A stretch of DNA of 33,302 nucleotides from Candidatus Stahliibacteriota bacterium (lineage in GTDB: Bacteria; Hydrothermota; UBA3072): the NCBI GenBank assembly GCA_030668705.1, contig DAOVFB010000006.1, forward strand, positions 1 through 33,302, read 5' to 3'. The stretch's first letter is position 1. Each line of letters opens with the position of its first letter. Under the pieces are notes generated by a model, which saw only the letters and a list, made by a program, of their open reading frames with translations, was not told the origin of the DNA and searched no databases. The position numbers and the translations under genes are program-made. This document shows positions 4,485-6,875 of the stretch, piece after piece.

Positions 4485-5635
4485 GAAAGGTAATGATTGG
4501 CAACCATGCACTTTCCTATGGGGCAAAGATTTCGAGGGCTCAGGTGATACCCGCTTATCCGATTACCCCTCAGACAGAGGTTGTGGAACTCTTAAGCGAG
4601 ATGTGCGCTAATGGAGAAATGGATGCCAAGTTTATTAAGGTGGAGTCCGAACATTCAGCAATGACTGCCTCTATAGGGGCATCAGCCACCGGAGCCAGGG
4701 TCTTTACCGCCACTTCTGCTCAGGGTCTTGCCCTTATGCATGAGGTTTTGCACTGGGCTGTTGGTGCAAGAACTCCAATAGTTATGGGGAATATAAATAG
4801 AGCTATGGCTCCTCCCTGGACGATATGGACAGAACAAACTGATTCCCTGGCTCAACGAGATACTGGTTGGATGCAGCTCTATGCACAGAATAGCCAGGAG
4901 GTTCTTGACTCTGTTATACAGGCATATAAGGTAGCAGAAGCAGTTCAAATCCCTGCTATGGTAATCCTTGCAGCATTTGTCCTGTCGCATACATCAGAGG
5001 CTGTTGAGTTGCCTGAACAGGGAAAGGTTGATGAATTCCTTCCTCCTTATGAGCCTGAGTACAGGATTGACCCTGCAAACCCTCATGCTTTTGGAGGACT
5101 TACAGGACCCGATGGATATTTTGAACTGCGTTATCAGATTCAAAAGGCTATAGAGGATTCATTGCCGAAATGGGATGAAGTGGGTCGTGAATTTGGAGAG
5201 TTATTCGGTCGTAAATATGGATTGATAGAGACCTATAAGGTTGAAGATGCAAAGAATTTGATCATATCCAGTGCTACATTGGCTTCAACAGCACGGACTG
5301 CAGTGGATGCTCTACGTGAAAAAGGGGAAAAGGTAGGACTGCTCAGAATAAGGGTCTTCAGACCATTCCCATCAGCTCAAATCAGGTCAATCCTTTCGTC
5401 AGTGGATAGAGCAGTGGTAGTAGATAGGAACATATCCTTTGGTGCTTCGGGCATCTTTTATCAGGAGGTAAAGGCGGCCGTATATAATGAAAAGAACCCA
5501 CCTCCAATATTCGGAGTAATTGCCGGAATAGGTGGCAGAGATGTTACGAAAAAGGATATAATAGATATATACGAAGATATAATGAGAATGGATGAGCCGA
5601 AATCAGATATTATCTGGAAGGGGGTAAGACTATGA
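4481..5635 (+). CDS. 2-oxoacid:ferredoxin oxidoreductase, alpha subunit
   Basis: A 384-residue alpha subunit carrying the pyrimidine-binding half of the TPP site. The N-terminal GNHALSYGAKISRAQ and AYPITPQTEVVELL stretches (about residues 5-35) are the family signature. A second conserved block is TDSLAQRDTGWMQLYAQNSQE, and the C-terminal half (about residues 250-350) is the transketolase C-like domain with LRIRVFRPFP. It overlaps delta by ATGA at 4481-4484 and beta by 4 bases at 5632-5635. It pairs with the beta subunit encoded next. Substrate assignment (pyruvate or branched-chain) is left open. Confidence 0.9.
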   Translation: MRKVMIGNHALSYGAKISRAQVIPAYPITPQTEVVELLSEMCANGEMDAKFIKVESEHSAMTASIGASATGARVFTATSAQGLALMHEVLHWAVGARTPIVMGNINRAMAPPWTIWTEQTDSLAQRDTGWMQLYAQNSQEVLDSVIQAYKVAEAVQIPAMVILAAFVLSHTSEAVELPEQGKVDEFLPPYEPEYRIDPANPHAFGGLTGPDGYFELRYQIQKAIEDSLPKWDEVGREFGELFGRKYGLIETYKVEDAKNLIISSATLASTARTAVDALREKGEKVGLLRIRVFRPFPSAQIRSILSSVDRAVVVDRNISFGASGIFYQEVKAAVYNEKNPPPIFGVIAGIGGRDVTKKDIIDIYEDIMRMDEPKSDIIWKGVRL

Positions 5636-6507
5636 AATTAACCATACCAGAAGAAGAGGTAATGGGTCATGGTCACCTTGCCTGTCAGGGCTGTGGTGGC
5701 GCACTCGCTATGAGATATACCTTAAAGACACTGGGGAGGAATACGGTATTGAGCGTTCCAGCCTGCTGTTGGTCGGTAATAGATGGCCCATTCCCCCATT
5801 CTGCTGTCAATATCCCTGTATTCCATACTGCATTTGAGGCTGCTGCATCTACTGCATCAGGAATTAAAGCAGGCTTTGAGATTCAGGGTAAGGATGTGAA
5901 TGTCGTTGCGTGGGCTGGAGATGGAGGAACCTACGATATAGGTATCCAGGCCCTCTCAGGTGCTGCCGAGAGGAACGATGATATTTTTTATATCTGTTAT
6001 GACAATGAAGCCTATATGAATACAGGCGTGCAGAGAAGTGGCTCAACCCCCTTGAAGGCATGGACGACAACGACACCTGTTGCACATCCAAAGGATAGGC
6101 CAAAAAAGGATTTGATCTCCATTATGGCTGCTCACAGGATACCTTATATTGCAACCGCTTCTGTTGCATACCCTGAGGATCTGACGGCAAAACTTGAAAA
6201 AGCAAAGAACATCAAAGGGACGCGTTTCTTACTTATCTTTTCGCCCTGCCCTCCGGGTTGGAAAGCAGATCCAAAGAATACAATAAAGCTTGCAAGACTT
6301 GCCGTCGAGACAAAGGTATTTAACTTACTTGAGATTGAGAATGGATTGGACTGGAGAATTACAAAGAAGATACGGAAGCCAAAACCTGTGATTGAATATC
6401 TCAAACTTCAGGGGCGTTTTAGACACCTTACAGAAGACGATGTCTCTCTGATACAGGAAAATGTGGAAAAGGAATGGAATATCCTGATGAATAAGGTAGG
6501 CGAATAG
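5632..6507 (+). CDS. 2-oxoacid:ferredoxin oxidoreductase, beta (TPP-binding) subunit
   Basis: A 291-residue beta subunit. The TPP/Mg motif is WAGDGGTYDIGIQALSGAAE (about residues 93-112), followed by the usual YDNEAYMNTGVQRSGSTP. Cysteines for the proximal [4Fe-4S] cluster appear in HLACQGCGGALA near the N-terminus, in VPACCWS, and later in FSPCPPGW. The C-terminal KLQGRFRHL is shared with POR/VOR beta chains. It is the last gene of the operon that begins at buk; no clear terminator follows, and the next 368 bases hold a structured repeat element. It acts with the three preceding genes as one enzyme. Confidence 0.9.
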   Translation: MKLTIPEEEVMGHGHLACQGCGGALAMRYTLKTLGRNTVLSVPACCWSVIDGPFPHSAVNIPVFHTAFEAAASTASGIKAGFEIQGKDVNVVAWAGDGGTYDIGIQALSGAAERNDDIFYICYDNEAYMNTGVQRSGSTPLKAWTTTTPVAHPKDRPKKDLISIMAAHRIPYIATASVAYPEDLTAKLEKAKNIKGTRFLLIFSPCPPGWKADPKNTIKLARLAVETKVFNLLEIENGLDWRITKKIRKPKPVIEYLKLQGRFRHLTEDDVSLIQENVEKEWNILMNKVGE

Positions 6508-6540
6508 GAGTGTTGGTATAAACTGTTATTACAAGACAAT

Positions 6541-6793
6541 ATGTCACATTTAATTACTACGAAAAGTGCCACATTATCATCTGTCATTCGGACTTGCCAC
6601 ACGAAAAGACGCGGTCAATTTCCCCAGCGAGGAAATTGCCGCTCGGCTCTCGGGTTCGCTCTCGTGAGATTAAAATCTCACGAACCATGCCCGCTCGCCC
6701 TCCGAGACGCGCATCGGAGCAGCAAGTCCTCTGACATTGATTTTCAAAAATCTAACTCTATTTCGAAGAGTTATTGTTACCAAAATGTGACAT
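6541..6793 (+). repeat. 253-bp non-coding element with 11-bp terminal inverted repeats and nested hairpins (MITE-like)
   Basis: This fills most of the 368-base gap between the oxidoreductase and yebC. It is bounded by a perfect 11-bp inverted repeat (ATGTCACATTT at 6541-6551, AAATGTGACAT at 6783-6793). Inside, GGACTTGC (6590-6597) pairs with GCAAGTCC (6722-6729), extended by TGTCA/TGACA (6582-6586, 6732-6736). That outer stem encloses three hairpins: 6611-6642 (12 paired bases with one bulge), 6653-6686 (13 paired bases, bulged, loop AA) and 6700-6719 (6 paired). TGYCA-type motifs recur at 6542, 6567, 6582 and 6595, reminiscent of multiple transposase sites at the ends of IS21-type elements. 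The centre looks richer in G+C than the flanks. No obvious target duplication and no convincing ORF. Confidence 0.6.
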
Positions 6794-6852
6794 CTGTTTT
6801 TAGTAATCATAGATGTTTATATAACCCTAATTACCTTTATACTTATGAGGCC

Positions 6853-6858
6853 TATAAT
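6853..6858 (+). promoter_or_regulatory. Candidate -10 box upstream of yebC
   Basis: A perfect TATAAT lies 17 bases before the yebC ATG, with AGAGGAAA between them as a likely ribosome site. No good -35 is visible at 16-18 bases upstream, so this is a weak call. Confidence 0.3.
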
Positions 6859-6875
6859 AAAGAGGAAACATAATT

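Follow-up and report, generated by a model that had tools for sequence, protein, structure and literature searches.

The window analysed here is a stretch of 33,302 nt, contig C45 in a WOR-3 (now Caldifarciminota) draft genome of 1.89 Mb. It carries a nest of inverted repeats between a pyruvate:ferredoxin oxidoreductase beta-type gene (5632-6507) on the left and the yebC-ruvC-ruvA-ruvB genes (from 6876) on the right. The original prediction read this nest, with limits at 6541 and 6793, either as a non-autonomous mobile element or as a multi-branched structured RNA. The locus thus raises the question of what the nest is, where it ends and, if it is mobile, what determines where it lands. We consider it very likely that 6524-6811 is an old MITE of an IS1202-type IS with long TSDs, of a kind that inserts in one fixed orientation and some 16 bp upstream of the -35 box TTGAC.

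Limits and ends of the element

The features of the locus are listed below in window coordinates.

6508-6523, + strand: left flank, at the position of the left TSD (GAGTGTTGGTATAAAC); conserved at the element-free orthologous site of genome G003
6524-6811, + strand: whole MITE copy from end A to end B, 288 bp; end-B limit estimated from aligned copies
6524-6580, + strand: end A; terminus TGTTATTAC, then two direct subterminal repeats at about 6526-6551 and 6553-6579
6541-6551, + strand: inner part of the first end-A repeat, taken as the left 11-bp end by the original prediction
6587-6731, + strand: structured core, 145 nt; covariance-model match of 162.8 bits
6590-6597, + strand: outer stem P1, 5' arm (GGACTTGC)
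6616-6638, + strand: hairpin P2 (CAATTTCC/GGAAATTG)
6662-6683, + strand: hairpin P4 (TCGTGAGATT/AATCTCACGA)
6722-6729, + strand: outer stem P1, 3' arm (GCAAGTCC)
6783-6811, - strand: end B; one inverted subterminal repeat and the terminus
6812-6827, + strand: right TSD position (GATGTTTATATAACCC); eroded, resembling 6508-6523 only loosely
6853-6858, + strand: TATAAT, probably the -10 box of yebC-ruvCAB; TTGAC is missing from the expected -35 position

The perfect 11-nt inverted repeats were found as predicted at 6541-6551/6783-6793. They are, however, subterminal repeats of the kind that transposases bind, and not termini. In BLAST searches with window positions 6500-6830, the similarity between copies spans query positions 24-308, i.e. 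about 6523-6807, and on each side it reaches about 17 bases beyond the 11-bp repeats. Similarity running past the ends had been named beforehand as a point against the prediction; it tells against the ends as first given, but not against the idea of a mobile element.

The termini read TGTTATT...GTAATCATA and lie at positions 6524 (TGTT) and about 6811; in the aligned full copies the terminus is TGTTATTCC at end A and GGTAATGACA at end B. End A has two copies of a subterminal repeat resembling ATTAC-N6-10-ATGTCACATTT, and end B has one or two in inverted orientation; the second end-B unit present in several other copies is missing from the window copy. These repeats are probably the binding sites of the transposase. 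An open reading frame at 6541-6873 (110 aa) was rejected as a gene, as it has no Pfam match and extends across the whole element.

Copies and duplications

The search gave 16 matches in the element's own genome, and copies were found in all six genomes of the family (its own and five others). In 54 more distant genomes there were no copies except for one weak match, and phages and plasmids gave no DNA match as a source of the MITE. Two contigs of genome G000 (C89 and C90) terminate within element copies, so the true copy number is probably higher.

Intact MITE and autonomous copies are flanked by TSDs of 15-18 bp. Among the MITEs, duplications of 15-17 bp are seen in L010 (TTACTATTTTTACCC twice), L057 (CCAAAATTTGATAAATC twice), L058 (AGAACTCCCCACCTC), L009 (ATATGTGTTGCATGGC/GTATGTGTTGCAGGGC), L065 (CAAAGGGGAGGAATAC) and further copies. 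The orthologous site in G003 is without the element: its flank is 97.2% identical over 1147 bp, and the similarity ends at GGTATAAAC/TGTT, i.e. at 6523/6524, which is the predicted boundary. TTGGTT comes after the left flank there. The same spot (L195, about 1245-1455) is filled by a few hundred bases of different, AT-rich sequence, so that the pre-insertion sequence is not cleanly visible. The non-autonomous mobile element is therefore borne out by dispersed copies with the same ends, by TSDs and by an orthologous site that lacks it; a search of related genomes for multiple same-ended copies or for an allele without the element had been proposed as the check, and both were found.

The window copy itself is an old insertion, with an eroded TSD and no adjoining TTGAC. 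Its family placement thus rests on its ends and its copies and not on its own target site. The gene downstream of the TATAAT at 6853-6858 is co-oriented with it.

We also note that the oxidoreductase gene with the left flank (5632-6523) is 97.2% identical at the DNA level to L195 (G003:C468) of another genus, and that the sequence from yebC onwards is only 73% identical to G003. Judged from these sequences, a recent transfer or recombination appears to end in the intergenic region between the oxidoreductase gene and yebC. Elsewhere, a lone end A (L079, G000:C102, 681-1425) adjoins two small overlapping genes, which by eye resemble a nucleotidyltransferase/HEPN-type pair.

The transposase

The element's own draft genome yielded no intact transposase that could be its partner. 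In a sister genus (G001), element L099 has a decayed gene matching NF033594 (transpos_ISNCY_2), with an end B on one side and an end A on the other. Compared with the MITE, end B of this element agrees at 80% over 59 nt and end A at 75% over 55 nt, and TTGACA-N16/17-TATAAT is located 16 bp outside its end B. End A of the window MITE is common to the G003 copies and to L099, and end A of L113 is likewise shared with the MITE. Intact elements were recovered from a search of 147 WOR-3 genomes. The intact related transposase of L105 scored 374.6 bits against NF033594 versus 21 bits against the IS21 model (cut-off 160). Plasmid relatives are annotated as ISNCY, ISLad2, ISKpn21 or ISEsa1/IS1202-like, which points to the IS1202 family. 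The marks of its long-TSD group are present, i.e. transposase-linked ends, TGT termini with a repeated internal TIR motif, and TSD length (16-28 bp by the membership criterion, 15-18 bp in the intact copies). The ends, the TSDs and the TTGAC rule described below are shared with IS1202-type elements, and this makes the window element a MITE of the long-TSD group.

The IS21-type origin put forward by the original prediction is extremely improbable: the TGYCA motifs behind it are real and belong to the subterminal repeats, and repeated binding-site-like motifs with TGT ends would suit it, but the TSDs are 15-18 bp long, the related transposases match ISNCY_2 and no istA/istB was seen beside MITE ends. 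The IS481/IS3 transposases of the own and sister genomes (L094, L095, L103, L104) were considered as partners and rejected, their ends and TSDs being mismatched. For IS1202-type matches in viral contigs the end finder gave no credible ends.

Four plasmid members (L133, L135, L143 and L145) have 5-bp TSDs and do not follow the TTGAC rule; L143 and L145 adjoin a dif-like sequence. In the transposase tree, whose deep order is unsure owing to some long branches, these 5-bp-TSD plasmid elements form one supported group, and the elements that abut TTGAC are scattered across the rest of the tree.

The target site

It is conspicuous that most MITE copies have TTGAC or TTGAT directly past the TSD on the end-B side, often followed by a -10 box. 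The rule was tabulated on 17 autonomous and 19 MITE elements, a few of them anchored by eye, from draft genomes with one per species; the autonomous elements carry an ISNCY_2/IS1202-type transposase and come from WOR-3, a Paenibacillus plasmid and genomes of the actinobacterial phylum. Of the 36 elements, 29 have TTGA at 15-18 bp beyond end B, namely 16/17 autonomous elements (TTGAC in all 16) and 13/19 MITE copies, as against 1/31 beyond end A. With a TTGAC background of 0.0013 per position per strand in the same loci, about 0.09 of 17 would be expected by chance over four positions (our own arithmetic). A -10 box with at least 4/6 matches at a spacing of 16-18 follows at 14/16 of the autonomous sites (a perfect TATAAT in 7), compared with 24/126 for all TTGAC in those loci. 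The TSDs of autonomous elements were found by a script that pairs inverted ends with duplications. Perfect TSDs of 15-18 bp are present in 12 autonomous copies, i.e. ten WOR-3 elements and both Paenibacillus copies, and in each of the 12 TTGAC abuts the TSD on exactly one side.

The rule is broken by the MITE copies L018, L060 and L090, by the window copy and by the autonomous element L154, which is the longest branch in the transposase tree. For L068 and L019, the anchor used places a TTGAC past the flank, at 8 and 12. Two further observations were made on single elements. L114 (G094) is an IS1202-type element that abuts TTGACA, yet has a 6-bp TSD, and L108 and L128 (G031:C127) are two different IS1202-type elements stacked apparently at the same promoter. 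We found no description of IS or MITE targeting of -35 boxes in the open-access literature.

In the mechanism that we propose, end B faces a sigma-70-type promoter and the 15-18 bp directly upstream of its -35 box are duplicated. What the transposase recognises is presumably this box or a protein that occupies it. The two ends would be joined to strands 15-18 bp apart, which would re-form the promoter and the adjacent upstream DNA downstream of the insert, and the insert would be near-neutral for the promoter. The window copy would have been mobilised in trans, and the 145-nt core would be cargo whose branched fold is maintained by selection.

A tentative alternative, to which we give roughly one chance in three, is that the promoter is recognised via the RNA polymerase holoenzyme (sigma region 4) and not via TTGAC itself, by analogy with yeast Ty/Tf elements. 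Yeast Ty1, Ty3 and Tf1 integrate upstream of promoters without destroying them; they are retroelements with other integrases and tethering proteins, and no kinship is claimed. The -10-like box 16-18 bp past TTGAC in 14 of the 16 autonomous cases agrees with holoenzyme recognition. So does a search at E 1e-40 in 394 genomes from an archaeal phylum with promoters that lack a -35 box, which yielded no match for the transposase family, although this absence has other possible causes. On the other hand, TTGAC is more sharply conserved than the -10 box, and selection against insertions within genes also enriches promoters. The sequence of TTGAC and then a -10 box could indeed derive in part from the loss of insertions inside genes. 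Random insertion without any target choice, with survival or detection limited to insertions directly upstream of promoters, is very improbable: in-gene insertions would be lost, but survival alone is no sufficient cause of the fixed distance of 15-18 bp and of the polarity (29/36 at B, 1/31 at A). We keep to target choice at the -35 box, which the transposase itself presumably reads.

A wider reading has an even chance in our judgement. In it, long-TSD IS1202-type transposases of several bacterial phyla would use the sigma-70 promoter itself (the bound polymerase or the -35 box) as a landing mark that is re-formed by the 16-bp duplication, and would make up a promoter-guided transposon family, with short hitch-hikers that carry a branched RNA or DNA fold.

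Relation to known elements

Correia elements are bacterial MITEs that are likewise small, non-autonomous and intergenic, with TIRs and TSDs; they differ in their short TSDs and in their transposases. To our knowledge, no fixed distance to a -35 box has been described for MITEs of this type.

The long-TSD IS1202 group comprises IS1202, ISTde1, ISCARN53/62/63, ISHahy13 and ISSeq2, and no target was found for it in the paper that defined the family, whereas short-TSD members insert close to dif (PMC10132070). The elements described here share with the long-TSD group the TGT ends, imperfect TIRs of about 25 bp, a second internal copy of the TIR motif (known from ISAjo2-type members), one large DDE transposase and, in many members, a TSD of 16-17 bp. 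The window copy differs in having no transposase and in having a structured core, and the target seen here is the DNA just upstream of TTGAC (-35). The short-TSD members ISAjo2 and ISAba32 are alike in transposase superfamily, in end type and in keeping a fixed distance and orientation to a protein-bound site, but their TSDs are 3-5 bp long and lie by dif/pdif, as opposed to 15-18 bp by -35 boxes. IS481EU and Banshee of Trichomonas have IS481/IS1202-like transposases, TSDs of about 4, 15 or 25 bp and TGT ends; they are eukaryotic and no promoter rule has been reported for them (PMC10045372).

The rule supplies a target for an IS group in which an earlier study found none, and makes the guidance of a bacterial transposase to promoters, as in yeast retroelements, directly testable. 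An element that is always 16 bp upstream of an intact -35 box would predictably rewire upstream regulation. It could also act as a promoter-mapping tool, flagging real promoters in uncultured genomes.

The structured core

From the inner part of the original prediction, the 8-bp stem was found at 6590-6597/6722-6729 and stem-loops at 6616-6638 and 6662-6683. The minimum free energy fold has three stems enclosed by the outer one, and a high G+C content is visible in the centre. The strand folds far more stably than dinucleotide shuffles, with a z of -8.25 over 6524-6812 and of -5.13 over the core at 6588-6731. Covariation analysis, which had been proposed as a check, detected at least one compensatory change in 33 of the 43 predicted pairs when the core was aligned with 20 others, and a larger set of 27 cores gave a similar fold. 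All 61 core copies found with the covariance model belong to the family's six genomes; the remaining 141 WOR-3 genomes, searched with stricter filters, gave none. A good core copy was seen in a contig of Candidatus Yanofskybacteria, far outside WOR-3 (L053, MGJJ01000019.1, 2641-2795), where it is present by transfer or by mis-binning. The core is a further unexplained and strongly covarying fold, confined to one bacterial family with one outside copy.

A role as a co-oriented 3'-end or leader element was rejected, as the orientations of neighbouring genes were mixed (20 loci scored). This inconstant orientation counts against a simple leader, attenuator or terminator. The remaining readings, between which we do not choose, may be a DNA-level hairpin element or a trans-acting RNA.

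One possibility, which in our estimate has slightly less than an even chance, is that the core represents a second element, either mobile or a hairpin at the DNA level (single-strand or cruciform), which nests in itself and in MITEs. This is suggested by nested or partial cores (L018, L090, L039, L052), by the varying number of hairpins (L019, L016) and by the occurrence of the core in either orientation, but for a core by itself no transposase, boundary or TSD was seen. It seems rather unlikely that the core is a functional RNA, with a regulatory or catalytic structure, that is MITE cargo or was later given MITE ends. The compensatory changes and the 61 copies speak for it, as does the occurrence of the core without these ends in G004/G005 and once in the Yanofskybacteria contig. 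Against it, the core occurs in both orientations with respect to adjacent genes and also to the MITE ends, between which it is turned round in L060 and L061 of G003, and it has no match in Rfam at the gathering threshold. Of the structured RNA first proposed, the fold with its strong compensatory change therefore stands and the RNA role is putative. Altogether, the original observation was partly confirmed and its interpretation is in part supported.

Some individual loci deserve mention. In L061 the polarity of TTGAT goes with the ends. In G005, cores at L039, L052, L171 and L184 are nested in degenerate copies of their own module, which results in two or three concentric shells. Finally, L036/L047 of G005 have the core between other inverted ends, TGCCAACCCCCCA / TGTCAACCCCCCA, which may represent a second MITE family that carries the core.
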